The position numbers and the translations under genes are program-made. The notes under the pieces are model-generated. The model saw only the letters and a list, made by a program, of their open reading frames with translations. It made no database searches and was not told where the DNA came from. Of a stretch of 21,740 nt of DNA, positions 3,763 through 21,740 are shown piece by piece (position 1 is the stretch's first letter; each line of letters opens with the position of its first letter). The stretch spans positions 1 to 21,740 of the IMG/VR virus record IMGVR_UViG_3300038654_000146; one strand, written 5' to 3'. The stretch comes from a virus.

Positions 3763-3764
3763 AG

Positions 3765-4823
3765 TTACGTTAATTTTCCATTAATTACGAGTGCTGAACT
3801 TGATGATGAATCATCAGTCGTTATTGTCACGTCAATCTTATCGTTAATACCTACATTAATAGGATTAGTTATCTCCAAACCACTAAACACTTCAGTATTA
3901 TTAACTTCTATTATTACACTAGTCACGTTGGTTAAATTTCGTAAACTAATTAATTGAGAATTGAAATCAGAGTTAAAATCAAATGTTAGTGAACTATTGG
4001 GTTTAAAAGTTATATCATATAAAAATGTGTTTTGAGTTACTTGTTTAACCTTAAATCCACTTTTAGTTTTACCTTTTAAAACTTCTTTGAATTTGATGTT
4101 AGCTCTATTAATAGTAGGTATTAATTCGAAATCATCTTCATCTAAAATGTAACCTAATATCTTCATCTCAAAACTTTGTACATAAAACCTTCTTTTATCA
4201 AAATCACTTTTTTGACTCTCATCCCCTATAGTCTCTAAATGTATTGGCATTGGGTGTCCGTTAACTTTGATGTAAAATTGTCTAGAGTTAAAAGTTTTCT
4301 GTATTTTTTTATGAAATTTATTTAAATCTTTCATTCTATTACAAAACAACCTAACCTCATAATTTATATCGATTGAAGTTGGTTGAGGTATTTTATACGT
4401 ATCAATACCCTTTCTTCCATCTACATTAGTAGGAACCTTCAAATAAGTATATAAATTACGACCTGGTATATTCCAATTACCAGCTTGATTCGTACCCACT
4501 TGTAAATTAGGTTCTCTAACTATTGTAATAAAAGGCATTTTAACATTTTTATATTTATCAGAAAAACTCCAAGTCTTACTAAATTCAGCCCATTTTTGTA
4601 TTGTTAGGAATAAAACAGGTACTTCCTCACCATCAACTTGTAATGATATTTCATCATCAACAAATTCAATAAAAGTTCTATCAATATCCTCAGTCTCTAC
4701 ACCCTTAGGTAGGTACATGCCTTTATAATCAATATCATCTAAATACTCTTGCCTCCTCTCAGGTCCAGTACTTTGTTTAATAATATTAACATTTTTTCTA
4801 AATCCTTTTGGTAAACCTGACAT
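3765..4823 (-). CDS. Probable T4 gp15-like tail completion/sheath-stabiliser protein
   Basis: This 352-residue protein lies between a probable neck protein and a tail fibre. Its layout resembles the gp15 family, which caps the tail tube and stabilises the sheath in contractile-tailed phages. It has a basic N-terminus, a KWAEFSKTW segment near 77-85, MPFITIVREPN near 96-106, then IPQPTSIDINYEVRLF (145-160), a helical stretch, a strand-rich HPMPIHLE segment (190-197), and RRFYVQSFEMKILGYIL (211-227). Residues about 250-352 form an extra beta-rich C-terminal domain ending in a serine run. Residue-level homology is judged by eye only; the 14-15 gene order of T4 gives independent support. The ATG overlaps the stop of a 13-codon upstream ORF as TAATG. 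A generic structural protein is the alternative. Confidence 0.5.
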   Translation of the reverse strand: MSGLPKGFRKNVNIIKQSTGPERRQEYLDDIDYKGMYLPKGVETEDIDRTFIEFVDDEISLQVDGEEVPVLFLTIQKWAEFSKTWSFSDKYKNVKMPFITIVREPNLQVGTNQAGNWNIPGRNLYTYLKVPTNVDGRKGIDTYKIPQPTSIDINYEVRLFCNRMKDLNKFHKKIQKTFNSRQFYIKVNGHPMPIHLETIGDESQKSDFDKRRFYVQSFEMKILGYILDEDDFELIPTINRANIKFKEVLKGKTKSGFKVKQVTQNTFLYDITFKPNSSLTFDFNSDFNSQLISLRNLTNVTSVIIEVNNTEVFSGLEITNPINVGINDKIDVTITTDDSSSSSALVINGKLT

Positions 4824-4864
4824 TATGTTATTTTATTAAATTTAGTTAAATTATCTTTAGTCAT
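4823..4864 (-). CDS. Possible 13-codon leader ORF before the gp15-like gene
   Basis: In the 54-nt gap between the neck-protein stop and the gp15-like start, an ATG at 4864 opens a 13-residue ORF (MTKDNLTKFNKIT). Its TAA overlaps the next gene's ATG as TAATG. The arrangement would permit termination-reinitiation coupling. It is very short and could be chance in AT-rich DNA. Confidence 0.2.
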   Translation of the reverse strand: MTKDNLTKFNKIT

Positions 4865-4877
4865 AATTTTATAATAT

Positions 4878-5399
4878 TTATCTTCCGTTAAATTCATCTT
4901 CATTGGCTATAGTACACTCAATCATTCTATAAGCGCTTTTATAACCCATTATTGTGTGTTTATTGTCGTAGTTCTTTTCACCAGCGTTAGTTACACTAAA
5001 ATAAATCATGTCAGTTTCATTAATTGGATAACCTACATAATCACCTACAGTAACGTCAACACCTAATTCGTTCAAATGCTCTACATAAACAATAAAACTT
5101 AAATTACCATCTTCTTGATACCTAAAGTTTGACTCATTATAAGTTAAATTCTTAGCTTCATTAATTGTAGGAGTGACGTATAACTCAACAGGTGGGTGGT
5201 AATTCAATTCATTAGCGTTAGCTTCATTATATATGTCATCAGATTGTGTCGTCTCTCTATCAACCCTATACAAAATAACTGTGAAGTTACCATCACCTTC
5301 CATAGATTCTCTACCCATTTCAATTTCTAAATCAAAATCTTCACCTGAAAAAAACTTGTTTATTCTCTTAATTGGTATTTTTCTTTTTCCGTTACTCAT
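4878..5399 (-). CDS. Probable neck/head-completion protein (gp14-like), tentative
   Basis: This is a 173-residue soluble protein without a signal peptide or membrane segment, and the first gene of the left minus-strand operon. Visible features are a very basic N-terminus, a DDIYNEANANEL stretch near 53-64, PPVELYVTP near 69-77, GDYVGYPINETDMIYFSV near 119-136 and a final GYKSAYRMIECTIANEDEF segment. The order of a D.IYNEA-type loop, a GD.V.YP.....YF.V hairpin and a C-terminal Y...CT strand recalls neck proteins of T4-like marine phages. The next gene resembles gp15, giving the T4 14-15 order. The assignment is inferred from pattern and synteny. I can securely say only that it is a conserved-looking phage structural protein. 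Confidence 0.4.
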   Translation of the reverse strand: MSNGKRKIPIKRINKFFSGEDFDLEIEMGRESMEGDGNFTVILYRVDRETTQSDDIYNEANANELNYHPPVELYVTPTINEAKNLTYNESNFRYQEDGNLSFIVYVEHLNELGVDVTVGDYVGYPINETDMIYFSVTNAGEKNYDNKHTIMGYKSAYRMIECTIANEDEFNGR

Positions 5400-5519
5400 G
5401 GTTAATCTATTAGCTTTAAAGATAAATATTTAACTATTAGTAAATCTGACGATATACTTTACTTTTTATTAAAAATAACTATATTAAGTAATGTAATATA
5501 TTGTTAAACACTTAAAAAA
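5400..5519. promoter_or_regulatory. Divergent intergenic region between structural operon and helicase
   Basis: This 120-nt AT-rich gap separates the minus-strand neck gene (ATG at 5399) from the plus-strand helicase (TTG at 5520). It must carry promoters for both directions if each side is transcribed from here. I see no convincing TTTG/TAnnTTTG pair or T4-late TATAAATA box. An imperfect palindrome GATAAATATTTAAC lies near 5421-5434. Confidence 0.3.
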
Positions 5520-8450
5520 TTGATAGATATAAATGATTTAAAGGGTAGGGGTGCAGTAACTTTATTGCAAACATACGAAGGTATTAACCCTTATATAAAG
5601 GAGTTAAAATCTAAGTTACTCAAAACAGGTAAAATAAGTTTAACTGAAGGGCAATCTCAGTACATAACTGATTTTCACGATACTCCACCTCAAGTTTTAA
5701 ACAAGGTGGTTGAAATAAACCCATTATTGGGTAACTCTTTAAAGGAAAAAGAAAATCTATCTTTTCTTCCAGAAAGAATTCTAATTCAAGCCATGTTAGC
5801 TGACCAAGAAAAAACTTATCACGTATACGGTAAGCTTAAGAGGAATCAGAAACACGCTAAAATGTATTTCTTACCAAAAACTATGGTATTGGATGACCCT
5901 TATTTTACTGAGTGTGATTTAGATATTGACTGGGAGAGGTACGAAAAAATGGACGCTGACTGTAGGTTACCTTATGAGCACCAAAAAACTGGAATTGAAT
6001 TTTTATCATGCAGAGATGGTGCTATTTTAGCTGACGATATGGGTTTGGGTAAAGCGGTGATTATCAATGAGTTAGTTTACACACCAACTGGAAAGGTTAA
6101 AATTGGCGATTTAAAAGTGGGTGATTATGTAATTGGTTCTGATGGTAAAAAAACAAAAGTTCTTGAAGTTCACCCACAACCTAAAAAAGACTTATTTAAA
6201 ATAACATTTAATGATGGATATTCTACTATTTGTTGTAAAGAACATATGTGGACTGTTACAGCAAATAATGGTAGTGTGAATAATAAAAATAGGTCAATTA
6301 GATACACTAATTTAACAATCGAACAAATGTTGGATAAAGAATTAGAGTTAGAACAAAGGGGTTTTGGATGGAATGAGAAAAGACCTTATAAGTTTAAAAC
6401 ATATTACAAACAACCTAATGGACAAAACAAATGGCAAATTCCAATTGTTAAACCAATTGAATTTGAAAATGAATATAAATTACCTATTGAACCTTATTTA
6501 TTAGGTGTTACTTTGGGTAATGGACATATCAAAAAAACGGGTGTTATTAGTATTGGCTTACATAAAGCTGATTTTGATGAAATATTTAAAAATCAATGTG
6601 TTAATGAAAGTTCAGGTGGTTTTAATATAAGATTAAATTATTTAAATAATTTAAAAGAAGAAGTATGTGCACTTAAATTAAATGGTACTTTATCTCACAC
6701 CAAATTCATTCCAGAAATATATAAATATTCTTCAATTGAAGATAGATTAGCTATCCTTCAAGGTCTTATGGACACTGATGGTCATTGTATGAAATCAAAA
6801 AGCGGCAATTTTACTGGAACTGAATATTGTAGTGTATCTGAACAATTAGCTGATGATGTGGCTGAAATTGTACATAGTTTGGGTGGTATTGTAAGAAAGA
6901 AGAGTAAAATAGGTTCTTATAAAAATTCAGATGATGAAAAAGCTTATCGTTTAAATATTAAATTACCAGAAGGGATGAATCCATTTAGGTTAAAGAGAAA
7001 AGCTAATGAATATAACACACCTGAAAAATATAAGGTTGGTAGATACATTAAAAATATAGAATCTATTGGTGAAGGTGATAGTGTGTGTATTAAGGTTGAT
7101 GCTGAAGACTCATTATTTGTTATTAATCATGGTATTGTTACACATAATACATATCAATCAATTATATCCTCTTTAGAAGTTGGAGCTAAAAAAGTGTTAA
7201 TCGTATGTCCAGCTAGTGTTAAGATATCTTGGCAAAGGGAAGTTGAAAGCTTCGGTAAGAAAGCGATTATAGTTAGTGGTAGTAACTGGCCAGACGTTGG
7301 TCAATATACAATTATAAATTATGACATTCTAAAGAATTTTCATTCAACAGGTTCTCGTAAGAAAAATGAACCTTACTATGAGGATATCATGAAAGAAAAT
7401 TATGATTTAGTTATCATGGATGAAGCTCATAAAATTAAAAACCCTAAAGCTCAAAGAACTAAAATAATGAACGACATTATAGAGCGTGGTAATATAGAAA
7501 AAGTTTGGTTATTAACAGGTACACCAATTGCCAATAAACCAATGGATTTTTTCAACCTATTAAAATTAATAAAATCACCATTAGGTGCTAACTGGAAGTT
7601 TTTTGCCACAAGATATTGTGATGCCAAGCGTTTCTATAAAAAACTTAAAAACGGTAGAACTAAACAAATATGGATTACTGATGGAGCGTCAAATTTAGCT
7701 GAATTAGGTATTAGAACTAAAAACAGTTTGTTAAGAAGATTAAAATCTGAAGCATTAGATATGCCAGATAAAACCATAACTACAATGTACCATGATTTAT
7801 CTAAACGTGGTTGGTCAGAATACGAAAACTTGTGGGAAGAGTACTTAGAAAAAAGAGCTGAAGAAGGTAAACGTAAAACAAGTTCAGTACATAAGGACTT
7901 AGTTGAATTAGGTCTATTGAGAAAATTCATTGCGATGGAAACAATACCTAAATCAATTGAGTTAGCTGAGGAAGCTATTGAACAAGACCAGAAAGTTATT
8001 ATATTTACAACATTTACTGAAGAACTAGAGGAGTTATCTGAACACTTCGGTAATAAGTGTGTTATACATAATGGTAGAATGAGCAGTAAAGCTAAGCAAG
8101 AATCAATTGATAAATTCCAAAATAACAAGAAAACAAAAGTTTTCATTGGTAACATAACATCAGCTGGTGTCGGTATTACCTTAACTGAGGCCACGGTTGT
8201 AATATTCAACTCTTTTAGTTGGGTACCAGGTGATAATGAACAAGCAGAAGATAGAAGTTATAGAATTGGTCAAAAAAACAATGTATCGGTATATTACCAG
8301 TTATTTAGAGGTACTATTTCTTTAATGATGTGGTATTCTGTTATGAGTAAACAAAAAAATATTGATGAGATACTAACTAAAGGTGATAAACACAGTGAAA
8401 GGATGGCAAATCTTTTGGGTGAGTTAAAAGAAAATGACTTAAAACTATGA
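5520..8450 (+). CDS. SNF2-family (SMARCAL1-like) helicase interrupted by an intein
   Basis: The 976-residue precursor becomes 611 residues after loss of a 365-residue intein (residues 179-543). Extein landmarks are a Q-like motif LPYEHQKTGIEFL before the Walker A motif, which is split as DDMGLGK | T, then VLIVCPASV, the DEAH box D634-E-A-H637, LLTGTPIAN, KVIIFTTFTEE, SAGVGITLTEA (motif V) and Q908AEDRSYRIGQ918 (motif VI). These define an SF2/SNF2 ATPase, and the compact form resembles SMARCAL1-type DNA-annealing translocases, implying fork remodelling or recombination. The start is TTG at 5520: an in-frame stop lies at 5505-5507 and no ATG codon occurs before residue 91. The stop overlaps the glutaredoxin start as ATGA. 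ATPase activity should require splicing because the intein splits the P-loop. Confidence 0.9.
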   Translation: MIDINDLKGRGAVTLLQTYEGINPYIKELKSKLLKTGKISLTEGQSQYITDFHDTPPQVLNKVVEINPLLGNSLKEKENLSFLPERILIQAMLADQEKTYHVYGKLKRNQKHAKMYFLPKTMVLDDPYFTECDLDIDWERYEKMDADCRLPYEHQKTGIEFLSCRDGAILADDMGLGKAVIINELVYTPTGKVKIGDLKVGDYVIGSDGKKTKVLEVHPQPKKDLFKITFNDGYSTICCKEHMWTVTANNGSVNNKNRSIRYTNLTIEQMLDKELELEQRGFGWNEKRPYKFKTYYKQPNGQNKWQIPIVKPIEFENEYKLPIEPYLLGVTLGNGHIKKTGVISIGLHKADFDEIFKNQCVNESSGGFNIRLNYLNNLKEEVCALKLNGTLSHTKFIPEIYKYSSIEDRLAILQGLMDTDGHCMKSKSGNFTGTEYCSVSEQLADDVAEIVHSLGGIVRKKSKIGSYKNSDDEKAYRLNIKLPEGMNPFRLKRKANEYNTPEKYKVGRYIKNIESIGEGDSVCIKVDAEDSLFVINHGIVTHNTYQSIISSLEVGAKKVLIVCPASVKISWQREVESFGKKAIIVSGSNWPDVGQYTIINYDILKNFHSTGSRKKNEPYYEDIMKENYDLVIMDEAHKIKNPKAQRTKIMNDIIERGNIEKVWLLTGTPIANKPMDFFNLLKLIKSPLGANWKFFATRYCDAKRFYKKLKNGRTKQIWITDGASNLAELGIRTKNSLLRRLKSEALDMPDKTITTMYHDLSKRGWSEYENLWEEYLEKRAEEGKRKTSSVHKDLVELGLLRKFIAMETIPKSIELAEEAIEQDQKVIIFTTFTEELEELSEHFGNKCVIHNGRMSSKAKQESIDKFQNNKKTKVFIGNITSAGVGITLTEATVVIFNSFSWVPGDNEQAEDRSYRIGQKNNVSVYYQLFRGTISLMMWYSVMSKQKNIDEILTKGDKHSERMANLLGELKENDLKL
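6054..7148 (+). other. Intein in helicase Walker A (Ala1...His-Asn/Thr+1) with LAGLIDADG endonuclease
   Basis: A 365-residue insertion sits exactly between GLGK and T of the P-loop. Its first residue is Ala (GCG at 6054), not Cys or Ser. The N-terminal splicing domain shows VKIGDLKVGDYVIGSDG (block A) and ICCKEHMWTV (block B, with the His). The C-terminus is DSLFVINHGIVTHN followed by extein Thr. Ala1 is the signature of inteins that skip the first acyl shift and let the +1 residue attack directly. Two LAGLIDADG-type motifs are present: LLGVTLGNGH, in which the catalytic Asp position is Asn (N334, AAT at 6519-6521), and GLMDTDGH with Asp intact (D420). Splicing looks possible; nuclease function is doubtful. 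Confidence 0.9.
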
Positions 8451-8698
8451 TTAGAATATATACAAGTGAAGAATGTGTATACTGTAATGATTTAAAAACC
8501 AAATTACAGAGGGGTAATATTGAATATACCGACATTGACGTGGATAATGACAAAAATAGAGAACATGTTGATAAATTATATGAGTTTGTTGGTAAATCCA
8601 TAATACCTATAATCATCAAGAAACCCCATATATTAATACCAACCAGAAGTTTCAATACGATAGATGAAGCAATTGAGTTGATTAAATCATTAGAGTAG
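8447..8698 (+). CDS. Glutaredoxin
   Basis: This 83-residue thioredoxin-fold protein has an N-terminal strand MIRIYTSEE, the dithiol active site C10-V-Y-C13, a YTDIDVDND strand region, a SIIPIII segment that supplies the expected cis-proline, and a C-terminal helix (DEAIELIKSL). Length and motif order match glutaredoxins. In phages such proteins typically reduce ribonucleotide reductase or keep cytosolic thiols reduced, but no reductase gene is in this window. The ATG overlaps the helicase TGA as ATGA, so translation is likely coupled to the helicase. The downstream gene begins 23 nt after its stop. Confidence 0.85.
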   Translation: MIRIYTSEECVYCNDLKTKLQRGNIEYTDIDVDNDKNREHVDKLYEFVGKSIIPIIIKKPHILIPTRSFNTIDEAIELIKSLE

Positions 8699-8721
8699 TA
8701 TATTTATTATAAAAATAAACA

Positions 8722-9188: not shown

Positions 9189-9475
9189 ACCATGAGCGTA
9201 AAACCCATTCATCGCTTTTTAGCGTGGATGGGATGTAAGCGACAAAGGTAACTAATTAACCTTGACTTAAAATATATTGACGAATTGTACCTGGATTTAC
9301 TTCACCTATTGAACAAACAAAATAACCTGCACTCCATAAAATGTTTTTGTACCAGTACTCTCTACGAAGTAATGTGGGATGTAGTAACCATATTTGTTTA
9401 GTAGATTGTTGTTTTAACCTACGTACTATTTGAGATATAGACAAACCTGGTAAACACCACTTTATTTTAAAAATT
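9185..9475 (-). mobile_element. IS200/IS605 remnant A: left end plus 3' part of tnpA
   Basis: The left part is a subterminal hairpin (CCCATTCATCGC, T-rich loop, GCGTGGATGGG; 9204-9232) and the GAGCGTAAAACCC end sequence shared with the elements at 14119 and 15102. It is followed, reading inward, by the C-terminal half of a Y1 transposase. The tnpA N-terminal half, tnpB and the right end are missing, and the break lies near 9470. The left boundary is less certain because its outermost bases (ATACCAT) differ from the ATAAAACG of the other two copies. Confidence 0.7.
9256..9444 (-). pseudogene. tnpA: C-terminal fragment of IS200/IS605 Y1 transposase TnpA
   Basis: The fragment reads SISQIVRRLKQQSTKQIWLL, then HPTLLRREYWYKN and LWSAGYFVCSIGEVNPGTIR, ending QYILSQG. 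These match the second half of IS200/IS605 TnpA, including the C-terminal helix with the candidate nucleophilic Tyr (in QYILSQ). The HUH metal-binding motif and N-terminal strands are absent. The frame continues upstream for a few codons (KWCLPGL) before similarity fades near 9470. Without the HUH site it cannot catalyse transposition. Confidence 0.75.
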
Positions 9476-9543: not shown

Positions 9544-12500
9544 ATGATTAACGATGAACAAATATCAAGATTCTTAGAAGGAAGAAACCCTCAAAAATAC
9601 ATTGTAAATGTTGAAATACCTTATGGTGCCGATAAAGTTTCTTTAATAATAAACGACCCAGTTAAGGGTAAATACGTGGTTAAAGATGATATCACGTCGT
9701 TTGTTTGGTTTAAGGAACCTATCACAAAAAAAATGTATGGTGGTAAAAGGAATAAGATTAAACAAGCTTGTAAGAAATTCGGCGTTACTATAACTAGACT
9801 AAAGACTTCATTAAATAACCAAGGTATTGCACCAAGGATGGAAGATGGTTTTAAGTTTATGGCCAAATGTACTGGTCCTTATGGAAAACTATTAAATTTC
9901 TTTAAGCAGGGTGGTATTGATGTGTATGGTGAGAGTGATAAAAGAAACTTTGTTGCAATCAACCCTATCGAACAATACTTAATTGCATCAGGTAAGCGTT
10001 TATTTAAAGGGTTTAATGACTATGATGATTTACACAGATTACAATTTGACTTAGAGACAACTGGACTTAAACCTAAAGGTACTTTATTATCACGTGAGGA
10101 AATAGAAGACGTTAAAAGTCGAATGAGTACTGGCGAAGATTTGACCAAACTTTATGAGTTCGATGAGAAAAATCAACCAGTTAGGTATAAGGATGCAAGA
10201 ATATTCCAAGTCGGTGTAAAGGATAATAGAGGTTACGAAGATATTATAGAAATTAAAACAGGTCCTGATGTTGACGATAGAGAAGAAGAGTTATTCGCTA
10301 TATTCAAGATGTTCGAGGTTATTAAAAAATTAAAACCTGATACAATTGCTGGCTATAACTCAGAAAACTTTGACTGGGATTTTATTTTCACTAGATGCGA
10401 CATTTTAGGTGTTGACATTGAATTGGTGGCCAAAACTTTGGACCCTACTGGTGAGCACAAAATAAAAAGAGTTGATAAATCTCTTAAATTAGGTGGTGAG
10501 CGAGAGTATTACAAGCAAACAACGATGTGGGGTTATAATATTATTGATGTTTATCATGCTGTGCGTAGAGCAAAAGCAATTAACTCCAATATAAAAAGCG
10601 CTGGATTAAAGTATATTACTAAATACGCTAAAAAGAACAAACCTAACCGAGTGTATGTGGACGGTGATAAGATTTACAGCATGTGGGCTGATAGCGTTAC
10701 TGATTACGCTTTTAATGATACTGACGGTACATATTATAAGATTACTGAAGAAAAGCCATTAGAAGAAGGATATAAGCTTGTCAAAGGTAAAATGATTATA
10801 AGGAGATACCTACTTGACGACTTATGGGAAACAGAAAAAGTCGATGCTGAATTTAACCAAGCAGCTTTCTTATTATCTAAGTTAATACCTACCTCATACA
10901 TGAGGTCTATAACCATGGGTACCGCAGGTATATGGAAATTGATTATGTTAGCTTGGTCGTATGAGAATAGGTTGGCCGTACCAGAGTTAAAAGAAAGACA
11001 AAGTTTTACAGGTGGTTTATCTAGGTTACTGGAAGTTGGTTATAGAACTGATGTTGTTAAGTTGGACTTTGCTGCCCTATACCCTAATATTGAAATAACT
11101 TGGGATATATTCCCAGATACGGATATTAGTGATGTAATGAAAGGTATGTTACTTTATATTGCAAATACAAGGGATAAGTTTAAAGGTTTAATGAATGAAC
11201 ATAAAGCTGAAGTTAGAACATTCCAAGAGATTATAGATACGAAAGGTGAATCTATGACTGAGGAAGAGTTGGGTTTTGCTAAAAAACAAGTAAAAGAAAA
11301 CTCAGCTTTAGCAAGTACGTATGATAAGAAACAATTACCTATTAAAATTCTAGGTAACTCATTTTTTGGTTCTTTGGGCGCACCTAACATATTTAACTGG
11401 GGTGATATTGAATGTGCTGAAGAAACCACTTGTAGAGGTAGACAATATCTAAGATTAATGGTTTGGTTCTTTGTTGATAAAGGATTCACACCTTTAGTTG
11501 GAGATTCAGTAACCTTTAACACTCCAATATTTATCAGGTGGAAAAAAACGAAAGAGATAGATATTCTACCAATCTCTGATTTATATAATCCTAACTCAGA
11601 GTTTATTGATGAAGAAGAACTTAGAGATTATGAAATCAAACCATATGAAGTCTTAACCGTAAATGGTTGGAAAGAAATTAATTATATATATCGTCATAAA
11701 ACAGATAAAAAAATACATAGAGTCTCTACAAAGGATAAATTAGTTTGTGTAACCGAAGACCACTCACTTTTTCAAAATACTAAACAAATAAAACCTAAAG
11801 ATTTAAAAAGAGGTGATTTATTAGATGTTAGAAATGTTGAAAATTTTAATAATGAAGGTATTGAATATTTAGATGAAGAAGTATCATTTCTATATGGTTA
11901 TTTTTTAGGTGACGGTTCCGCTACTTATGGTGATAGAAAACAATATTATAAATATAAAAGAACTGGTGAAATAAATATTAATAAAGGGAAAAGAAGTGTT
12001 TTTAAAATTTCTTCATCTAACTATGATAAATTACTTAAATTACAATTAATTATAGAAGAACAATTTGATATTAAAACAAAGATTAAAGACCATAGAAAAT
12101 CTAGTGGTGTTTATAATCTAGTTAGTTATTCTAAATACGTAAGTATTAAATTTAGTAAAGATTTTTATACCTCATACAGAGAGAAGAAAATTCCGTATTA
12201 CATATTAAATGCTAGTGATAAAAATAAATTAGCTTTTTTAAATGGTGTTTTTTCCTCAGATGGTTATGGTGATTATTTAGAAGATTGTTCAGATATTGGT
12301 ATAAAATCTCAAGTTGCTATGTCTGGTATTGGGTATATTATGGATTGTTTAGGTATTGATAAAAAAATAAGAACTAGAAAAGATAAAGAAAATTTCATCT
12401 CATTTAGATTAAAAAATAAAAATAGAAATAACTCATCTTTTACTAATAAAACTAAAATGAAAAGTGATGAAGTTTGGTTAAATGAGGTTATAAAAAATAG

Positions 12501-14082
12501 ATGTCCTAATGGATATGTGTATGACATTTCAACAGAAGATGGTACTTTTGTTGGTGGAATTGGAGGTGTTGACTTAAAGAACACTGATGGTTTCAACTTT
12601 GCAATACCTAAAGATGTTGACAAGTTTAGATATACACCTAAAGGTACGCATAGATTTACGGAAAGCAAAAAAGGTGTTGAGTCTGTTGGTTTAGATGCAG
12701 TTGTTGATGAGTACAATGAATTGTATATGATTGGCCGTATGGGTCTAGATATTGATGATATTTGTGAATCAACAATTAATTTCTCTAGGAAAAATTATGC
12801 TAACCTTATCGATGGTAAGATTAAATTAGTTGGTAATACAATTAAGTCATCTAAAATGCCAATATACATTGAAGAATTTTTATCAGAAGCTATTAAATAT
12901 TTATTAAATGGTGATGGTTACAAATTCATTCAACTATATAATAAAACTGTTGACGATATCTACAACTTTAGGGTACCACTGATGAAAATAGCATCTAAAT
13001 CTAATGTTAAAGAGTCTAAATCAACTTACATTAAGGAATCTAAAACTAAGACTAAAGCTGGTAACTATAAAGCTAGAAAGGCTCACATGGAGTTGGCTAT
13101 TCAGAATGATGTGGACATTCATTTAGGTGATACAATGTATTATGTAAATACTGGTACTGTAAAGTCACATGGTGATGTTAAAGTTAAAACTGATAAAGAA
13201 ACTGGTAAAAGAAGCGTACATCTAAATTGTATGATGATTCCAGCTGAACAAATTGAGGGTAATCCAGAATTAACAACGGAAGAATATAATGTACCAAAAT
13301 ATTTGGATAACTTTAATAAAAGAATAAAACCTCTATTAGTTTGTTTTAGTCCTGAAATTAGAGATGATATTATAGTCGATATGGTTAAGGATAAGAAGAC
13401 TAAAGAAATGACATTAAGTGATTTCAAGGTATTCACTGAGTCACAATGTCAATTAACCAATGGAACATCAATAAAAGAAGGTGACCAAGATGACTATAAT
13501 GATAATTTAATGTCAATGGAGGATAAAGAAATCCAATTTTGGTTAAGAAATAAAAAAGTACCTAATAATTTAGAAGATTTAGGGTTAAAGTGGAATGAAG
13601 TTGTTGATGATTATAATAAAAGAAAGGAAATAGAAAGAATTGAAGGTATTAAATACGATAAAAATATGTTTTTATCCACAATAAAACGTTTAGAAGTTGA
13701 AGATATTAATACAATGAAAGGGTCTTCTAAAATACCTAAGCAATTGGAAGCATTCGCTGAATTTAATGTACATGACGACGATAAAGGAAATCCAAATATA
13801 TTTGTAACCTCAACGAAATGGGGTGTTGATTTAGGTACGGTAGAGGATATATTAAAGTACGAGCCTTGGGCTGAACAAAGAAGTTATTGGTATTTAAATG
13901 AAAATCCAAGTAAAAATGACAAAAACTTTGAAGGGTGGATATATAACATGTGGGTTAAAGCTAAACTTAATAAAGATGAAGGTAAGGCCAATAAAATAGA
14001 AAAAGAATTGAATTTAGTTGGCATTGAAATCGATGTTGAGGATTACAAAAAACTTAGAAAGTTAGAAAAAAAGGAGGTTTAA
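9544..14082 (+). CDS. Family B DNA polymerase with 3'-5' exonuclease, interrupted by an intein
   Basis: The precursor is 1512 residues, 1153 after removal of a 359-residue intein (655-1013). Exonuclease motifs: Exo I D169-L-E171, Exo II N272...F276-D277, Exo III Y388-A-F-N-D392. Polymerase motifs: A, D508-F-A-A-L-Y513-P-N-I; B, K601-I-L-G-N605-S-F-F-G609; C, VGD654 | T1014-D1015-G, which the intein splits between the first Asp and Thr. Downstream, SRKNYANL and IKSSKMP fit the KKRY/thumb region. This is the replicative polymerase. About 240 residues at the C-terminus (from about 1270) are charged and match no family I recognise. An intrinsic terminator overlaps the stop. The ATG at 9544 follows an A/T-rich leader with no Shine-Dalgarno sequence. 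Confidence 0.92.
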   Translation: MINDEQISRFLEGRNPQKYIVNVEIPYGADKVSLIINDPVKGKYVVKDDITSFVWFKEPITKKMYGGKRNKIKQACKKFGVTITRLKTSLNNQGIAPRMEDGFKFMAKCTGPYGKLLNFFKQGGIDVYGESDKRNFVAINPIEQYLIASGKRLFKGFNDYDDLHRLQFDLETTGLKPKGTLLSREEIEDVKSRMSTGEDLTKLYEFDEKNQPVRYKDARIFQVGVKDNRGYEDIIEIKTGPDVDDREEELFAIFKMFEVIKKLKPDTIAGYNSENFDWDFIFTRCDILGVDIELVAKTLDPTGEHKIKRVDKSLKLGGEREYYKQTTMWGYNIIDVYHAVRRAKAINSNIKSAGLKYITKYAKKNKPNRVYVDGDKIYSMWADSVTDYAFNDTDGTYYKITEEKPLEEGYKLVKGKMIIRRYLLDDLWETEKVDAEFNQAAFLLSKLIPTSYMRSITMGTAGIWKLIMLAWSYENRLAVPELKERQSFTGGLSRLLEVGYRTDVVKLDFAALYPNIEITWDIFPDTDISDVMKGMLLYIANTRDKFKGLMNEHKAEVRTFQEIIDTKGESMTEEELGFAKKQVKENSALASTYDKKQLPIKILGNSFFGSLGAPNIFNWGDIECAEETTCRGRQYLRLMVWFFVDKGFTPLVGDSVTFNTPIFIRWKKTKEIDILPISDLYNPNSEFIDEEELRDYEIKPYEVLTVNGWKEINYIYRHKTDKKIHRVSTKDKLVCVTEDHSLFQNTKQIKPKDLKRGDLLDVRNVENFNNEGIEYLDEEVSFLYGYFLGDGSATYGDRKQYYKYKRTGEININKGKRSVFKISSSNYDKLLKLQLIIEEQFDIKTKIKDHRKSSGVYNLVSYSKYVSIKFSKDFYTSYREKKIPYYILNASDKNKLAFLNGVFSSDGYGDYLEDCSDIGIKSQVAMSGIGYIMDCLGIDKKIRTRKDKENFISFRLKNKNRNNSSFTNKTKMKSDEVWLNEVIKNRCPNGYVYDISTEDGTFVGGIGGVDLKNTDGFNFAIPKDVDKFRYTPKGTHRFTESKKGVESVGLDAVVDEYNELYMIGRMGLDIDDICESTINFSRKNYANLIDGKIKLVGNTIKSSKMPIYIEEFLSEAIKYLLNGDGYKFIQLYNKTVDDIYNFRVPLMKIASKSNVKESKSTYIKESKTKTKAGNYKARKAHMELAIQNDVDIHLGDTMYYVNTGTVKSHGDVKVKTDKETGKRSVHLNCMMIPAEQIEGNPELTTEEYNVPKYLDNFNKRIKPLLVCFSPEIRDDIIVDMVKDKKTKEMTLSDFKVFTESQCQLTNGTSIKEGDQDDYNDNLMSMEDKEIQFWLRNKKVPNNLEDLGLKWNEVVDDYNKRKEIERIEGIKYDKNMFLSTIKRLEVEDINTMKGSSKIPKQLEAFAEFNVHDDDKGNPNIFVTSTKWGVDLGTVEDILKYEPWAEQRSYWYLNENPSKNDKNFEGWIYNMWVKAKLNKDEGKANKIEKELNLVGIEIDVEDYKKLRKLEKKEV
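11506..12582 (+). other. Intein in polymerase motif C (Ser1...Lys-Asn/Thr+1) with LAGLIDADG endonuclease
   Basis: The 359-residue insertion interrupts GD | TD of the YGDTDS-type motif, a recurrent intein site in family B polymerases. It starts SVTFNTPIFIRW and ends in GGVDLKN followed by extein Thr. The penultimate residue is Lys where His is usual. Block B is TEDHSLF, with the conserved T..H. Both LAGLIDADG motifs keep their acidic residue: YGYFLGDGSA (D790) and LNGVFSSDGY (D906), so a functional homing endonuclease is plausible. Because the reading frame is continuous through the insertion, this is an intein and not an intron. Confidence 0.92.
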
Positions 14083-14100: not shown

Positions 14101-14126
14101 ACTTTATTTTAACTTCATATTGTGAA

Positions 14127-14255
14127 CTACCCACCCACGCCAGAGGCGATGGGATGGGCTTCGGAGGTCATAGACTCACCTAATGTCAACGCCTTGCTAC
14201 GTTTTTGTTTTATATCCGAGTCAGTTCCTGAACCAGATAGTATTTTTAAACCTTG
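14127..14255 (-). pseudogene. tnpB: C-terminal fragment of TnpB
   Basis: The minus strand reads GLKILSGSGTDSDIKQKRSK, ALTLGESMTSE, then the hallmark TnpB ending AHPIASGVGG and TAG (14127-14129). This tail lies past the RuvC and zinc-finger parts, which are all missing, so no nuclease can be made. In intact elements this 3' region doubles as the template for the reRNA/omega-RNA scaffold. Confidence 0.75.
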
Positions 14256-14267
14256 TTTTTTAAACCT

Positions 14268-14414
14268 ACTCGTCAAATATGGTTGTTACACCCAACTTCA
14301 CTTCGTAAAGAATATTGATACAAAGATATGTTTTGGAGTGATGGGTATTTCGTTTGTTCAATAGGTGAAGCATCACCTGATACTATTCGTGAGTATATCC
14401 TTAATCAGGGTTAG
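14268..14414 (+). pseudogene. tnpA: C-terminal fragment of TnpA with an in-frame stop
   Basis: The plus strand reads RQIWLLHPTSLRKEY, stop, YKDMFWSDGYFVCSIGEASP, then DTIREYILNQG and TAG. It aligns residue for residue with the fragment at 9256-9444. The TGA at 14316-14318 replaces the Trp of REYWYKN (TGG to TGA). The candidate catalytic Tyr (in EYILNQ) is still encoded, but the HUH half is gone. Confidence 0.75.
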
Positions 14415-14468
14415 TCGCTTACATCCCACCCACGTAAAAACGATGGGTGGGTTTTACGCTCCGTTTTA

Positions 14469-15059: not shown

Positions 15060-15101
15060 TTTTTTTTGTTTTTATTATATATTATTATTAATCATTTAAT
15101 T

Positions 15102-15180
15102 GTGAACTACCCACCCACGCCAGAGGCGATGGGATGGGCTTCAGGGGTCAGCACTTTGACTAACGTCAACAGTTCGTCCT
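15102..15180 (-). ncRNA. Possible residual omega-RNA (reRNA) scaffold of element C
   Basis: In intact TnpB elements the guide RNA comes from the 3' end of tnpB through the right end, with the guide read from flanking DNA. The equivalent stretch here keeps the strong CGCC/GGCG-cored hairpin and is nearly identical in element B (14119-14200). If transcribed leftward, the guide would be taken from the DNA just left of 15102. Expression is not shown by sequence. Confidence 0.25.
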
Positions 15181-15250
15181 GATTTTTAAGAGTGTGTTCC
15201 CCACTCAAATTATTTTTTAAAGCTAATCTATATTTAAAACCTTTAAGCAT
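15107..15250 (-). pseudogene. tnpB: 47-codon TnpB N-/C-terminal fusion left by internal deletion
   Basis: An intact ATG-to-TAG frame begins MLKGFKYRL, which matches the usual TnpB start (MLKA.KYR.YP). It then jumps to a TnpB-like tail, ALKNNLSGEHTLKNQDELLT and LVKVLTPEAHPIASGVGG. Everything between, including the RuvC-like catalytic residues and the zinc ribbon, is missing. The deletion kept frame, start and 3' end, so the transcript across the right end could still be translated. The peptide itself has no expected activity. Confidence 0.7.
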
Positions 15251-15440
15251 ATGTTATTAAATACTCTAAACTTTTGTAAAAGTACGATATTTTTTGGCAA
15301 AAACGAAAATTTGTTTAAATTTACAAAACGTAAGTGTAATTGAAATCGCTTACATCCCATCCACGCAAAAGCGATGAATGGGTTTTACGCTCCGTTTTAT
15401 AAATATGTAATTTTTTATTAAACATCATAATCATTTTAAA

Positions 15441-16688
15441 TTAAATACCATCTGAAAAATCACATATTCCAAAACTAGTGAATGACTGAGTTCTAATATC
15501 CCAAAACTTCCATGTATTACCATCTGAATAATATCCAGAAATCTGTTCTAAATCACCATTACTATTTTCATATAATTGACTAGCTGAACTGAGGGATTCA
15601 GTGTCTGTATATTTAGTTAAATTTAACACACCACCACAAGCATTTTCTATTGAAGAATAATCTCTAGCTAAGGTTTGTTGAAATGTAAGTGAATCTGAGA
15701 ATTGTCTTAATGAAATTGTTCTAGTTATAAAACTATCTGTTGTCCTTAAAACTATACTTCCAATTCTTTCATTACCAGTAGTATTCTGTGAATAATTTAC
15801 CGAAACTGTATTATCATTACCTATTCCAGAGACAGTCGAATAATTTATATCTATCCAAGAATCATTACTAAAAACATTCCAAGTAGTATTTGAAGTTACA
15901 CTAAATGAAAATATACCTGCACTATCATCTACGTCTTCACTTGAAGGTATAACACTTAATGATTGTGAACAATCATATTTTAGTGTTATAATACCATTTG
16001 AATCTACTTTAATTATTGAATCACTAGTGGCTTGATTATCTTCATTAAATGTGTAGAATTTATTATTACCATCAAAGGGTAATGTACCTTCTATATTTTC
16101 AAATAACTTATCAGTACCCCCAACTTCACCATTATTCAGTTGGTTATCCCAAAAAATAAGTCTCGTTAATGATAAAGAACTACAAGCTTGTTGTGTGGTA
16201 TCAAAAGCATCGATTGATATATTAATAGTTGGTAAATTTTTAACAGTACCAGTGAACAAACTATCGCTAGTCCCTACATTATTAGCCGCATCTCTAGCGG
16301 TAATATAAATGAAATAATTCGTATTTATCCCTAAACCACTTATCGTATAATTCCTAACACCACCTCCAACATTTATTGTTAACCAAACACCACCAGCCGC
16401 TTGGTAATATATAGTTTGAGATACCACACCAACATCATCAGTACTATTCCAGCTAATACTTATAGATGTTTGAGAATTATTAGTTTTAGCTAAATTAGTT
16501 ACTACTGGTGGTTGACCATCAGAATTAGTTATTGGGCAAATAGATGTATTAAAAACTGGAGCTACGTAGTCCTCATTTAATTCACCACCTATAAACTCTG
16601 TATTGGGTTTAGTCTCACCTGTTGGTTCACCCGTATCAATATTATATCTCTCTAAAATCCCATAACCCACAAATCCGTTATTTGCCAT
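15441..16688 (-). CDS. Virion surface protein with FN3 and BACON domains
   Basis: This 415-residue protein is the last gene of the right minus-strand operon. Domain order: a short N-terminal segment ending DYVAPVFNTSICPI (40-53); a fibronectin type III domain (about 60-150; SISISWNSTDD, YTISGLGINTNYFIYITARD); a roughly 80-residue domain starting QACSSLSL; a BACON domain (about 241-330; FSVTSNTTWNV...WI.I....G.G...VSV.YS.N......RIGSIVL, ending RTISLRQ); and a second copy of the 80-residue domain starting NACGGVLNL. BACON is a Bacteroidetes-associated domain thought to bind carbohydrate or mucin and is known in crAss-like phages. There is no signal peptide, consistent with assembly into virions. 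Glycan or surface binding is inferred. It lies 27 nt downstream of the VWA gene. Confidence 0.8.
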   Translation of the reverse strand: MANNGFVGYGILERYNIDTGEPTGETKPNTEFIGGELNEDYVAPVFNTSICPITNSDGQPPVVTNLAKTNNSQTSISISWNSTDDVGVVSQTIYYQAAGGVWLTINVGGGVRNYTISGLGINTNYFIYITARDAANNVGTSDSLFTGTVKNLPTINISIDAFDTTQQACSSLSLTRLIFWDNQLNNGEVGGTDKLFENIEGTLPFDGNNKFYTFNEDNQATSDSIIKVDSNGIITLKYDCSQSLSVIPSSEDVDDSAGIFSFSVTSNTTWNVFSNDSWIDINYSTVSGIGNDNTVSVNYSQNTTGNERIGSIVLRTTDSFITRTISLRQFSDSLTFQQTLARDYSSIENACGGVLNLTKYTDTESLSSASQLYENSNGDLEQISGYYSDGNTWKFWDIRTQSFTSFGICDFSDGI

Positions 16689-16715: not shown

Positions 16716-17915
16716 TTATACATTACATGAAGATTCAATGATATCAGAAATGGTGTTAGCGTTATATGTGGTATTGAAATCACCTCCAGTATCTGTTGCA
16801 AGGTCTTGCCAAATTGGGTTTGCAGCACCTTGACCAAGAACTATAACAACAACACCATTATCAATACAATCTTGTGTTAATGATGCGATACGATTTCTAA
16901 CTTCCTCAGTAAAATCATCATCTAATCCACCAGGTAAAGCATCGGTTATTAAAATTACATATCTAGCAACACCTGACCTAAATTGACCAAGTAAATTGTT
17001 ATTTAAAACTTTATCTAATGCTATATCCATTGGTTCTGGAACATTAAAACCATACCCTAATCCAAATACACCGCTGTTTATCTTATTTAATTGGGTATTA
17101 AACGTAGAGTTATTATTTATATTAAACATCTCCATTGCTGTTATATAAATCGTTGTATCTGCATTACTATTTAACGTTAATTTTTGATTATTAGGTAATT
17201 CATCATAATATATATTATTATAAATAGGTGGAGATGACGAATTATGCCATTCATCTACAATACATAAACCCAATCTATAATCATTAGTGTTAGTTTCAGT
17301 TTCAATAGTGTTAACCAAATCTGATACACCAGATTTAGTGTTTTCAATATATGCACCCATACTCGAAGAGTAGTCAATTATAATAGCTACATCCATTCCT
17401 TCAGCACATTCAACTGCACCTTCGTATAAAATAGTACTTATACTCGCTGTATTACCTCTAGAATCTTCTACGGTAACGGTATAAGTACCCACAGTTAAAT
17501 CAGTAATTGTGTTAGTGATAGATGAAGTACTAGTTGTAGAACCATTACTCCATGTATAAATGTAAGGACCTTCACCTGAGGTTACAGTCACCGTCGCTGT
17601 CCCGTCCAATGCTCCACTAATAGTAGGGTCTGTAGATTCAATCTCTAATGTAACGCCTTCTTCACAAAATTGAGAATCTTGTTTAACTCTCCACCCTAGG
17701 TTTGTTAATGGTGACAATAATTGATAAGGGACTACTTGATTCATATCCAAACTAGAAATCCTTGTTTCATCAATTTGTAAAAAAAATTGTATTGCCGCCT
17801 TACTCATACATTCACTTCCAGTGGGCATTGCAGATTGCAATTGGAAATACCCCTCATTAGCCACCATGTAATGAGCATCATCAAATGTTACTACTGCATT
17901 GAACTCTCTTGCCAT
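16716..17915 (-). CDS. SprB-repeat plus von Willebrand A domain virion protein
   Basis: This protein has 399 residues. The N-terminal 85 residues are unassigned (MAREFNAVVTFDDAHYMVAN and on). Residues about 90-165 match the SprB repeat of Flavobacterium gliding adhesins (GEGPYIYTWSNGSTTSTSS...DLTVGTYTVTVEDSRGNTAS). Residues about 170-399 are a von Willebrand factor A domain with a MIDAS DxSxS (D181-Y-S-S-S185) and the later Asp in ILITDALPGG (D325); the middle MIDAS Thr is not obvious. VWA domains coordinate a divalent ion in protein-protein contacts, so this could be an adhesin or virion-assembly partner. The ATG overlaps the fibre stop (TAATG), implying coupled translation. There is no signal peptide, which argues against a secreted host protein. 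Confidence 0.8.
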   Translation of the reverse strand: MAREFNAVVTFDDAHYMVANEGYFQLQSAMPTGSECMSKAAIQFFLQIDETRISSLDMNQVVPYQLLSPLTNLGWRVKQDSQFCEEGVTLEIESTDPTISGALDGTATVTVTSGEGPYIYTWSNGSTTSTSSITNTITDLTVGTYTVTVEDSRGNTASISTILYEGAVECAEGMDVAIIIDYSSSMGAYIENTKSGVSDLVNTIETETNTNDYRLGLCIVDEWHNSSSPPIYNNIYYDELPNNQKLTLNSNADTTIYITAMEMFNINNNSTFNTQLNKINSGVFGLGYGFNVPEPMDIALDKVLNNNLLGQFRSGVARYVILITDALPGGLDDDFTEEVRNRIASLTQDCIDNGVVVIVLGQGAANPIWQDLATDTGGDFNTTYNANTISDIIESSCNV

Positions 17916-20900
17916 TATATATCTTCAATTAATTTCAATCTCTTTTCTAATTCGTCAAGCTTATTTAACTTATTTTCTAAATACTTGTTCTTTTGTGATA
18001 ATTCCTGTATTGCCTTAGCTTGAACAAATAAAGTTTTATACAAGTTAACAGCATCTCTTTCTTCTGTTAAAAACTCATCAGGTGAATCATCAGCCATAAT
18101 ACCTATTTGGTCCACCCCTTTATTCTCCTCCTTATAATCAAAAGTATAAATATCTAGGGAGTCTACTAAAGCTAGTGCAGAATTGTTAAAAGGTGATAAA
18201 TTTTTCTTTAATTTTCTTAAAGATGATGTTGCTGATGTAGAATAAACTTTATCTGCTATTATATTACCGTTTACATCTAATTTAGCAGATGGTGTATCTG
18301 TCCCTATACCTAAATTACCACCATTAAAAAAATAACCCTCAGGTGACCAAGATGTTTCACTTGCAGGTGCATTAGCCTGTCCTGATGATACATCAGGGGT
18401 AAAGTAGCTACTGTGGTTTCTAATCCCTATTTGTAAGTTATCGTATGGCTGAGTACTTTTCATCCAAAGTTCTGCAACGTTAGCAGAGGTTCTATATAGA
18501 TAATAAGTTTCAGCATATGTACTACCTTTTACAAAAAATGTTCTAATAAAATCAATTTGGTTTGAACCCCTTTCTATGTTTACATGTACAGTATGGTTAC
18601 CACCATATCTAGTTAAAACTTCTACTATAGCTTGACCATCCATATATTGGTTAGCTAAAGTAAAATATCCTATTTTAAAATATCTTACTGAATTATTCCC
18701 AACACTTTTAAGTTCACCTAATTTCAAATGGTCTAAAATACTATTACCGTTTACATGTAATTTAGCAAATGGTGTATTTGTCCCTATACCTACATTATCG
18801 TTGAAAAGTGAATAAGAAGTAAAAGTTTTCTCACCTGTTATAGTTTCATTTGATGACTTATCAACATACCTACCGTCTAAATCTGCTGTTTGATTAGTAC
18901 CCCCAATTATATCTAATGTTAAAACTCCATTAGAGGTATCAAATAAAACATCATTAACATAAGTATCAGTGAAACTAGTTATATAACCAGCGTCATTATT
19001 GAAATAACTTATATCCACTGGGAAATTAGTTATATCTGATATTGTGTGTGTATGGTTTAATAATGAATACCTACCATCTAAATCAACAGTTACAGTAATT
19101 GAATCATCTCTAGTTGCAGTTAGAACTCCATCAGCTGAGTTAAAACCTAATCCATTTATTTTAGTATCAGTACCACCACTACCTAATTCATCCACATATG
19201 CTAATCCCTTCCACTCAGTTCCATTATGAATAGTCGGTCTATTATTATCATCAGAATCATAAATTAAGAAACCAGCGTCAGCGTTAGTTATAGCTGAAAG
19301 TTCATTTCTATAAAACCTAACTGCCCCATTTCTGTATATAGTGAACGCATCATCTCTAGATGAAGTACTAATACCATTACCGTAATTAACCAATCTATCA
19401 GTTGGGTGTTCTGTATCACCACCATTAACTGGTGTATAATCAGTACCATAAGCACCACCAGAAAATTCACCAACACCCCTAGCGTAATTGTAATAACCTT
19501 GAACATGTGAATATTGACCAGTGGCTAGTGTCGTATATCCTTCAGAGTGTGAAGTTGAACCAAGAGCTTCTGTATCATTACCTTCAGCGTGTGATATAGG
19601 ACCACTAGCTATTGTTTCACTACCTTCAGCGTGTGAAGCTACTTCACTAGCCTCAGTATCACTACCTTCGGCATGAGAAATGTTACCACTAGCTATTGTA
19701 TTAAATCCTTCAGCAAAAGAATACATAGCCGTTGCACCTTTTGTTATTGATGTAGTATTACTAAAACTAAAATCTTTTGCGTTTTCACCAATACTACCAT
19801 AGTTACTAGCAACCCTATCTTTTAAGACATAACCAACACCATTACCTTCATCTATTGCCACTAACTGACCATTACCTTCGGCAACATTTAAATCATCGAC
19901 ATAAGCTAATCCTTTCCATTCAGTTCCATTGTGTATTGTTGGTCTGTTATTATCATCAGAATCGTAAATTAATAAACCTTCTTTATTTGTGTTAGTTATA
20001 TCACTAGTTGTGGTTATATAAAATCTAACCGCACCGTTCCTATATATAGTAAATGCATCATCCCTAGAAGAAGGCCCTATACCATTACCATAATTAACCA
20101 ATCTATCAGTTAAATTACCATTAGCTGTATAATCAGTACCATATATACCACCAGAATGTTCACCAAGACCTCTAGCAAAGTTATTATCACCTTGGGCGTG
20201 AGAAAACGCACCACTAGCAATTGTTTCTCTACCCTCTGCGTGTGAATTTTGGTTACTAGCTTCTGTGTCAAAACCTTCAGCATGTGACGCAAAACCACTA
20301 GCTACAGTATCAGAGCCTTGGGCATGCGAATACGGGCCACTAGCTACAGTATTAAAACCTTCAGCGTGTGAGGCTACTTCACTCGCAACAGTAGTATCAC
20401 CCTCAGCATGTGAGTTAGGTCCACCAGCAATTGTAGAACTACCTTCTGCGTGGGATGTAAAACCACTAGCTATTGAACCACTACCTTCTGCATGTGAATT
20501 AGTCTCAGTAGCTTGGGTATTATTACCTTCAGTATGTGAAAAAGTACCTAAAGCTTGAGTACCTTGACCCTCAGCATGTGAATATGCACCACCAGCAACA
20601 GAATCACCTTCGGAATGAGAAGTAAACCCACTTGCCACTGAACCATCACCTTCAGCATGAGAATTAACACCACTAGCCACTGAACCATCACTTTCGGCAT
20701 GTGAATTTGGACCACTAGCTAGTGTATTAGAACCTTCGGCATGTGAATTGTTAGAGGTAGCCTGTGTATTCCTACCTTCAGCATGTGAATTAGGTCCACT
20801 AGCTGTTGTATTAAACCCTTCAGTAAATGAATTCTCACCCGTTGAACCAAGTGTTGTTGACAAAGTATCACTAAAACTAAAGTCTTTTGCATTGAAACCT

Positions 20901-21740
20901 ATAATACCATAATTACCAGAACTTCTGTCTTTTAAGGCGTATCCATCGCCATTACCTTCATTTATTTTAATTAACTCACCCGTTGAACCACTGGCTCCAC
21001 CACCTAGTTCGTCCACGTACGCTAATTCTTTCCATTCAGTTCCATTATGTATTGTCGGTCTGTTATTATTTTGATTATCTAAACCAAAGGCTCCTTCAAC
21101 ACCATTTGGTATATTAACATTAAACGGTGCGTTTTTAACGTTAATTGGTCTGAATTTTATAAGACCAGACCTAAATACAAACAATTGAGAATTTCTATTA
21201 TTTTGGTCAGCTGAAGTACCAACGTGGAATGATAAATCATTTATACTTACTTCGTTAGGGTTTTGAGCCATAACATCTAATGAGTTAGCACCCACAACAA
21301 TTTCACCAGCCGCTCTACCAGTACATCTAATACCAATTGTAGATGACCCAGCACCAGTACTTAAGTTTCGGTTACCAAACGAAGAAGAAAACTGATTATT
21401 GGAGCTATTTCTAGCACCAAATACAATAGAGGTATTACCAGAAACAGAATTTAAAAAACCAAAAGCCGCCGAAAAATCTCCTAGTACACGATTAGTCGCA
21501 CCCGCAGCAAAAGAAACATCACCCTCTATTGAGTGGTTAATTCCTGTAGCAAAACTAGCTACACCAGTAACACCATATGTGTTTATCGTACTAGAAGTAA
21601 GTGATGGGTCGTAAAGAGTTAAGTTTACTGAACCAAAACCTACTTGACCAAAATTACTTTGGTCTATATTTTTAATAACATAACCATCACCATCAGAAAT
21701 TAACTGACCACTTTCAGCACTAAATGTTATTGTATCACCA
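17915..21740 (-). CDS. Giant SHAEG-repeat tail fibre with C-terminal S74 chaperone, 5' end beyond window
   Basis: The frame is open to the right edge. A GTG at 21295 could be read as a start, but 148 further sense codons lie upstream with the same style of sequence (SFATGINHSIEGDVSFAAG, degenerate YadA-head units), so the gene almost certainly starts outside. At least 1274 residues are visible. Numbered from 21295: TIHNGTEWKELAYVDELG (81-98), SHAEG array 1 (155-372), connector HSGGIYGTDY...GAVRFY (380-426), a second module with array 2 (525-605), collagen-free beta regions, two GIGT.TP.AKL.VNG motifs (836-850, 996-1010), and a peptidase S74 intramolecular chaperone (about 1018-1110; SSLRKLKKNLSPF, DIYTFDYKEE, DQIGIMADD) ending in a coiled coil. 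S74 domains trimerise fibres and then cut themselves off. It forms the host-contact fibre, co-transcribed with the VWA gene. Confidence 0.88.
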   Translation of the reverse strand, partial: GDTITFSAESGQLISDGDGYVIKNIDQSNFGQVGFGSVNLTLYDPSLTSSTINTYGVTGVASFATGINHSIEGDVSFAAGATNRVLGDFSAAFGFLNSVSGNTSIVFGARNSSNNQFSSSFGNRNLSTGAGSSTIGIRCTGRAAGEIVVGANSLDVMAQNPNEVSINDLSFHVGTSADQNNRNSQLFVFRSGLIKFRPINVKNAPFNVNIPNGVEGAFGLDNQNNNRPTIHNGTEWKELAYVDELGGGASGSTGELIKINEGNGDGYALKDRSSGNYGIIGFNAKDFSFSDTLSTTLGSTGENSFTEGFNTTASGPNSHAEGRNTQATSNNSHAEGSNTLASGPNSHAESDGSVASGVNSHAEGDGSVASGFTSHSEGDSVAGGAYSHAEGQGTQALGTFSHTEGNNTQATETNSHAEGSGSIASGFTSHAEGSSTIAGGPNSHAEGDTTVASEVASHAEGFNTVASGPYSHAQGSDTVASGFASHAEGFDTEASNQNSHAEGRETIASGAFSHAQGDNNFARGLGEHSGGIYGTDYTANGNLTDRLVNYGNGIGPSSRDDAFTIYRNGAVRFYITTTSDITNTNKEGLLIYDSDDNNRPTIHNGTEWKGLAYVDDLNVAEGNGQLVAIDEGNGVGYVLKDRVASNYGSIGENAKDFSFSNTTSITKGATAMYSFAEGFNTIASGNISHAEGSDTEASEVASHAEGSETIASGPISHAEGNDTEALGSTSHSEGYTTLATGQYSHVQGYYNYARGVGEFSGGAYGTDYTPVNGGDTEHPTDRLVNYGNGISTSSRDDAFTIYRNGAVRFYRNELSAITNADAGFLIYDSDDNNRPTIHNGTEWKGLAYVDELGSGGTDTKINGLGFNSADGVLTATRDDSITVTVDLDGRYSLLNHTHTISDITNFPVDISYFNNDAGYITSFTDTYVNDVLFDTSNGVLTLDIIGGTNQTADLDGRYVDKSSNETITGEKTFTSYSLFNDNVGIGTNTPFAKLHVNGNSILDHLKLGELKSVGNNSVRYFKIGYFTLANQYMDGQAIVEVLTRYGGNHTVHVNIERGSNQIDFIRTFFVKGSTYAETYYLYRTSANVAELWMKSTQPYDNLQIGIRNHSSYFTPDVSSGQANAPASETSWSPEGYFFNGGNLGIGTDTPSAKLDVNGNIIADKVYSTSATSSLRKLKKNLSPFNNSALALVDSLDIYTFDYKEENKGVDQIGIMADDSPDEFLTEERDAVNLYKTLFVQAKAIQELSQKNKYLENKLNKLDELEKRLKLIEDI
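19481..19723 (-). repeat. 42-nt SHAEG repeat array 2 in the giant fibre
   Basis: Six units (SFAEG, four SHAEG/SHSEG, SHVQG) share unit types SDTEASEVA and NDTEALG with the smaller fibre. They are followed by a diverged connector (YYNYARGVGEFSGGAYGTDY). Confidence 0.8.
20180..20833 (-). repeat. 42-nt SHAEG repeat array 1 in the giant fibre
   Basis: Sixteen or so 14-residue units with core SHAEG, SHAQG, SHSEG or SHTEG occur here. They are more diverged than those of the smaller fibre. One unit (SHSEGDSVAGGAY) is a residue short, an in-frame 3-nt loss near 20600-20620. Confidence 0.8.

Follow-up and report, generated by a model that had tools for sequence, protein, structure and literature searches.

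The locus

The window, meaning the whole 21.7-kb virus record, carries on its minus strand a gene for a 399-aa protein with a von Willebrand-type (VWA) domain. The gene, its neighbours and its parts are as follows.

15441..16688, minus strand: downstream gene, 415 aa, with an FN3 domain and a BACON-like stretch
16716..17915, minus strand: VWA gene, 399 aa, ATG start; N-terminal part, Ig/PKD-like (SprB) putative stalk, C-terminal integrin-like VWA
17915..21295, minus strand: upstream fibre gene, with YadA-head repeats and a C-terminal Peptidase_S74 chaperone; its stop overlaps the VWA gene start
17658..17915, minus strand: N-terminal part, residues 1-86, containing C36 and C84; low model confidence
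17415..17657, minus strand: Ig/PKD-like domain (residues 87-167), within which the SprB repeat matches at about 95-127
16719..17414, minus strand: VWA domain, residues 168-399, from Pfam, the AF2 model and Foldseek

The gene is a member of a virion fibre block, to which the downstream gene likely also belongs. Its ATG shares one base with the stop of the YadA-head/S74 fibre gene (TAATG), so the translational coupling to a tail fibre proposed in an earlier note on this DNA is plausible. The same note had described a SprB repeat joined to a VWA domain in a protein that lacks a signal peptide, and this description holds. Both Pfam families exceed their cut-offs: SprB (PF13573, cut-off 28 bits) scores 29.2 bits with the whole protein (E 7e-7), 30.7 when the domain is taken by itself and 32.3 when the genome is searched; and VWA (PF00092, cut-off 23.8 bits) scores 27.2 bits (E 5e-6; range 27-30). 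The SprB repeat is present as a single copy, barely above threshold. Read from its sequence, the N-terminus has no hydrophobic signal.

Residues 1-86 matched no Pfam family, and the N-terminal 88 aa had no relative in the viral contigs searched; this part may serve as an anchor in a tail or fibre assembly, which is a guess. A tblastn search with the whole protein and with VWA representatives against 50,697 phage records gave nothing at E<=1e-3 (a chance-level match had E 8), the first scan of genome contigs gave no match, and the plasmid search gave one weak SprB-type match, in Runella. An Rfam search also gave no match.

The phage and its neighbouring genes

The fibre gene matches phages of Flavobacterium, Leeuwenhoekiella, Tenacibaculum and Chryseobacterium, among others, which makes a Bacteroidota host likely; the phage is taken to be T4-like. 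The window encodes a family B DNA polymerase and a SNF2-type helicase, each split by a LAGLIDADG-bearing insertion, along with a gp53-like baseplate protein recognized by a weak match only. The insertions in the helicase, 5520-8450 (+), and the polymerase, 9544-14082 (+), read as inteins. A 197-kb relative, G001, has the polymerase, helicase, g120, g173 and gp53-like genes in common with the window at 50-76% identity; its helicase and polymerase are shorter (617 vs 976 aa and 1152 vs 1512 aa). Other close relatives lie on short contigs.

Several further features of these genomes were noted. Intergenic repeats with hairpin-like ends flank the polymerase gene (14120-14460, 15100-15400 and 9217-9444), one pair of them inverted. 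By eye, a 62-aa ORF at 9256-9444 (-) resembles an IS200/IS605 transposase fragment, and the repeats, which had no Rfam match, look like decayed IS200/IS605-type remnants. A fibre-like ORF of at least 582 aa runs off the end of the window at 1-1746 (-), with 25-residue repeats (SVTNMxxMFxxASSANPDTTNWDVS) that by eye have the appearance of BspA/DUF285-type surface repeats. A second YadA-head fibre gene, at 1762-3762 (-), ranges from 81 to 1326 aa among relatives otherwise about 99% identical (L004-L006, L008-L010); this variation in length and content suggests fast shuffling of fibre parts. Two relatives carry about 540 additional bases between g173 and the gp53-like gene (L007 5947-6542; L020 3423-4018) that the others lack. 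In G001, a gene run at about 51.8-67.9 kb (L026-L027) reads by eye as glycosyltransferases and sugar-nucleotide enzymes, and a small 213-aa VWA-like protein is encoded at 44799-45440 (-) (L026 4799-5440), with VWA_2 below cut-off and no relation by search to the VWA family described below.

A predicted metal site in an integrin-like fold

The VWA domain contains a MIDAS, as the earlier note had claimed, and two cysteines bracket the domain.

17406..17408, minus strand: C170, first bracketing cysteine, in 21 of the 21 rows that reach the position
17361..17375, minus strand: MIDAS motif 1, D181-Y-S183-S-S185; D181 and S185 invariant and S/T at 183 in 22 members
17034..17036, minus strand: MIDAS motif 2, E294 in PEPxD, invariant in 22 members
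16941..16946, minus strand: MIDAS motif 3, T324-D325, invariant in 22 members
16725..16727, minus strand: C397, second bracketing cysteine, in 22 of 22 rows

The D-x-[ST]-x-S, E and TD elements are invariant in all 22 aligned members, as are Y182 and M186 (a further member, L175, is in alignment A5 and was left out of the 22-row conservation set). All 21 aligned relatives match Pfam VWA at E<=0.01. We infer a disulfide between C170 and C397.

An AF2 model from a 19-sequence alignment resolved the VWA, with mean pLDDT of about 70-96 per block; residues 1-104 were modelled poorly, and an earlier two-sequence model (pLDDT 38) was discarded. Model and Foldseek agree on a Rossmann-like VWA fold. 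Among the PDB matches listed by Foldseek, integrin beta chains take nearly all top places, from E 3e-9; a phmmer search of the VWA against PDB gave a chance-level match only. The DxSxS/Glu/Asp metal-site set is that of integrin beta chains, and as in those chains E replaces T at the third MIDAS element. The domain thus resembles the integrin beta I (beta-A) domain (PF00362, VWA clan) in fold ranking and metal-site set; it differs in that identity in the structural alignments is 12-20%, an alpha subunit is absent, and the scaffold is that of a phage. Pfam Integrin_beta gave weak matches below the cut-off in 3 of the 21 VWA members (17.7 bits for member P0002, cut-off 24.8) and reported none for the window protein. 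Since the profile stays below its cut-off, the VWA is better said to work like integrin beta than to be one.

The best viral structural match by far is A0A7S9SU38, a VWFA protein from Virus NIOZ-UU157, which aligns over 442 columns with 24% identity (E 1e-25). At 986 aa it is much longer than the 399-aa window protein, and the papers found do not describe its function.

Variable loops

The near-identical L001 phage differs from the window by about 1% in the polymerase and by 8% in the VWA, where 16 of the 19 amino-acid differences fall in three loops.

17349..17366, minus strand: variable loop 1 (residues 184-189), which follows strand 1; 4 of its 6 residues differ from L001
17211..17246, minus strand: variable loop 2 (residues 224-235), which follows strand 2; 6 of its 12 residues differ
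17040..17072, minus strand: variable loop 3 (residues 282-292), immediately ahead of E294; 6 of its 11 residues differ

From strand order and topology in the model, all three loops are predicted to lie at the MIDAS end of the domain. In the face-loop set pN is 0.147 and pS 0.015, compared with 0.013 and 0.019 elsewhere (Fisher p 1.6e-6); the set was taken from the model, but after the differences between window and L001 had been seen, so this p-value is partly post hoc. Because synonymous changes are very few, dN/dS is imprecise. Among twelve further pairs, five showed enrichment (p 0.003-0.03, some sharing members), six, including the pair from contractile-injection (eCIS) loci, showed none, and one was reversed.

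Replacements so sharply localised between near-identical phages could suggest that a diversity-generating retroelement acts on this gene. The changes are nevertheless not confined to adenine (A/G 9, G/T 6, C/T 5, A/C 4, A/T 4, C/G 2), they fall in three loops spaced about 330 nt apart, and the window repeats listed, covering 21.7 kb of the genome, include no VWA template repeat. A retroelement therefore deserves almost no credence, and the reading was rejected.

One domain on many scaffolds

More than 30 viral contigs and two eCIS loci of Bacteroidota encode relatives of the VWA. The domain usually lies at the C-terminal end of virion-type proteins that are unrelated in their other parts, or is encoded alone directly after the major capsid gene. 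In a search of 395 genomes the matches to the whole protein were mostly to the Ig-like stretch and came largely from long open frames, but one stood out: a 1079-aa protein of G046, 37-39% identical to residues 125-397, has cadherin/Big-type repeats followed by a VWA at its end. Directly upstream of its gene lie a gp25 gene and the genes of two large proteins, of which one has Baseplate_J; still further upstream are genes that, read from sequence, look like those for tube, LysM and, in three copies, sheath proteins. The G046 locus is an eCIS operon, and its layout recurs in another genome, G673.

Profile searches of IMG/VR found 14 viral loci with an alignment of three VWAs and 32 with eleven. 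The scaffolds on which the domain occurs are these.

L151: VWA ends a 1765-aa tail-type protein
L152-154, L156, L163, L165-172, L174, L180, L182: VWA ends 720-750-aa FN3-type proteins
L173, L179: VWA at the end of a 2238-aa protein from a baseplate cluster, behind a long Thr-Pro linker
L181: VWA ends a 1196-aa fibre-block protein
L176-178: VWA internal to a 499-aa tail-cluster protein
L175: VWA internal to a 2136-aa protein
L155, L157: VWA ahead of propeller-like repeats, in a polymerase-adjacent gene
L158-162: VWA as a protein by itself, 261-295 aa; its gene immediately follows the major head gene

The linker of L173, encoded at 1989-8705 (+), runs to several hundred residues of Thr-Pro repeats ahead of the VWA tip. 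Some relatives lie beside the polymerase gene, in the same fibre block as the window gene; others lie in baseplate and tail clusters; and two of the scaffolds occur in G001 without a VWA. Such varied scaffolds are, on the gene sequences, the pattern of an exchangeable tip.

The ML tree is consistent with exchange. It places the window VWA with L152 and L153, which come from another phage type (95/94), and those of eCIS with L155 (95/94), which shares the polymerase and neighbouring genes with the window phage lineage; branches are long and the deep forks weak. These groupings indicate that the tips move, and a single vertical descent of the VWA with each phage type is not favoured. As tips, domains of this family appear to be swapped among the particle proteins found in Bacteroidota-type phages and in the injection machines of bacteria.

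eCIS fibres of the eBAP4 type have been linked with VWA and PKD domains, and VWA domains in eCIS fibres have been catalogued (PMC12923769). The G046 and G673 proteins resemble these fibres in carrying a C-terminal member of the family after eCIS baseplate genes. The window protein differs in belonging to a phage and in lacking the long N-terminal part; the eBAP4 baseplate anchor is N-terminal, and the window protein's N-terminus has no known match in Pfam. In the open-licence literature searched, no account turned up of phage structural proteins that carry a family of integrin-type VWA tips, and this family of integrin-like metal-binding domains is apparently undescribed so far.

What the protein may do

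With a probability of about 0.68, the window protein is a receptor-binding protein displayed on the virion, with a modular, integrin-beta-like VWA tip that acts through a metal. The N-terminal part would anchor the protein in the tail or fibre assembly; the one Ig/PKD-like domain (the SprB repeat) would form the stalk; and the C-terminal VWA would be the working tip, which probably grips the target cell surface. Judging by the fold and the invariant residues, the MIDAS (D181, S183, S185, E294 and D325) would hold a divalent metal, its coordination completed by an acidic group of a ligand on the target cell, as in the integrin beta I domain. Loops around the MIDAS may diversify and so alter specificity, and phages and eCIS may exchange the modular tip between unrelated scaffolds. 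For the wider proposal, that a mobile integrin-beta-like MIDAS tip, with rim loops that diversify within populations, acts in metal-dependent receptor binding and is traded among T4-like phages, a second phage type and eCIS, we see even odds.

The earlier note had proposed that adhesin-like sequence in a virion part could contact the host gliding machinery or mediate metal-dependent attachment. The second idea is supported by gene context, an invariant MIDAS, the integrin-like fold and diversified face loops. Contact with gliding has a single SprB repeat match (29-32 bits) in its favour, and the comparison with the SprB gliding adhesin of Flavobacterium ends there: the window protein has no repeat array, no signal peptide and a phage context, and its Por_Secre_tail score, for the T9SS sorting domain, is 14 bits against a cut-off of 27. 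The repeat itself is generic, a common Ig-like module of surface proteins in Bacteroidota. It occurs in 10 of the 14 Bacteroidota genomes sampled; PKD, Big_13 and PPC match the same stretch, all below cut-off; G001 has two copies (43.5 bits together) in a 1161-aa protein of a baseplate gene cluster; and phage proteins named 'SprB repeat' are already present among predicted viral structures. Nor is it common to the VWA relatives, whose scaffolds are FN3, cadherin/Big, Thr-Pro linker, propeller-like or none. Being generic and not shared by the relatives, the repeat is best seen as an Ig/PKD-like stalk module for the VWA, the putative working domain. The analysis saw nothing that connects the protein with gliding proteins, and contact with the gliding machinery is highly improbable.

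The stalk also bears on another possibility: instead of recognising a host receptor, the protein could decorate the virion and attach to glycans, matrix or mucus-like polymers in the environment, concentrating phages near hosts, as has been proposed for Ig-like Hoc and BACON domains. The SprB stretch matches PHROG 2973 (Hoc-like) at E 7e-6 and, weakly (E about 0.01), PDB 'decoration protein' entries 5lxk, which we take to be T5 pb10, and 8zvi, together with a neck-whisker protein; Hoc-like and pb10-type proteins lack a VWA tip. The BACON-like stretch in the downstream gene fits this view, as do the relatives that stand alone directly after the major head gene, where a head decoration might be. 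Against it, the window gene belongs to a fibre block and comes straight after a tail fibre gene; in other relatives the VWA forms the end of a baseplate or tail protein; and loop diversification better suits a variable partner. A decoration role is accordingly unlikely. Still less probable is a virion-assembly co-chaperone paired with an AAA+ ATPase, in the manner of MoxR-VWA and CobS/CobT-like viral pairs. Viral VWA proteins with AAA+ ATPase partners are known (PMC7824862, PMC7911831, PMC8651126), yet no AAA+ gene was found adjoining the VWA gene in the window, for which reason this reading was rejected; moreover, the domain terminates long fibre-like proteins, and its conserved bracketing cysteines fit an exposed domain.

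Implications

Little is known about the tips with which Bacteroidota phages bind their receptors. A receptor-binding VWA tip would give an alignable family with a testable metal site, which may help to predict receptor-binding proteins in viral metagenomes, and would link phage tips to the fibres of eCIS, whose targets remain a question. It would also be a case, outside animals, of adhesion of the integrin type for which a selective driver is likely. If the reading is true, integrin-style adhesion would serve the recognition of a bacterium by a virus.
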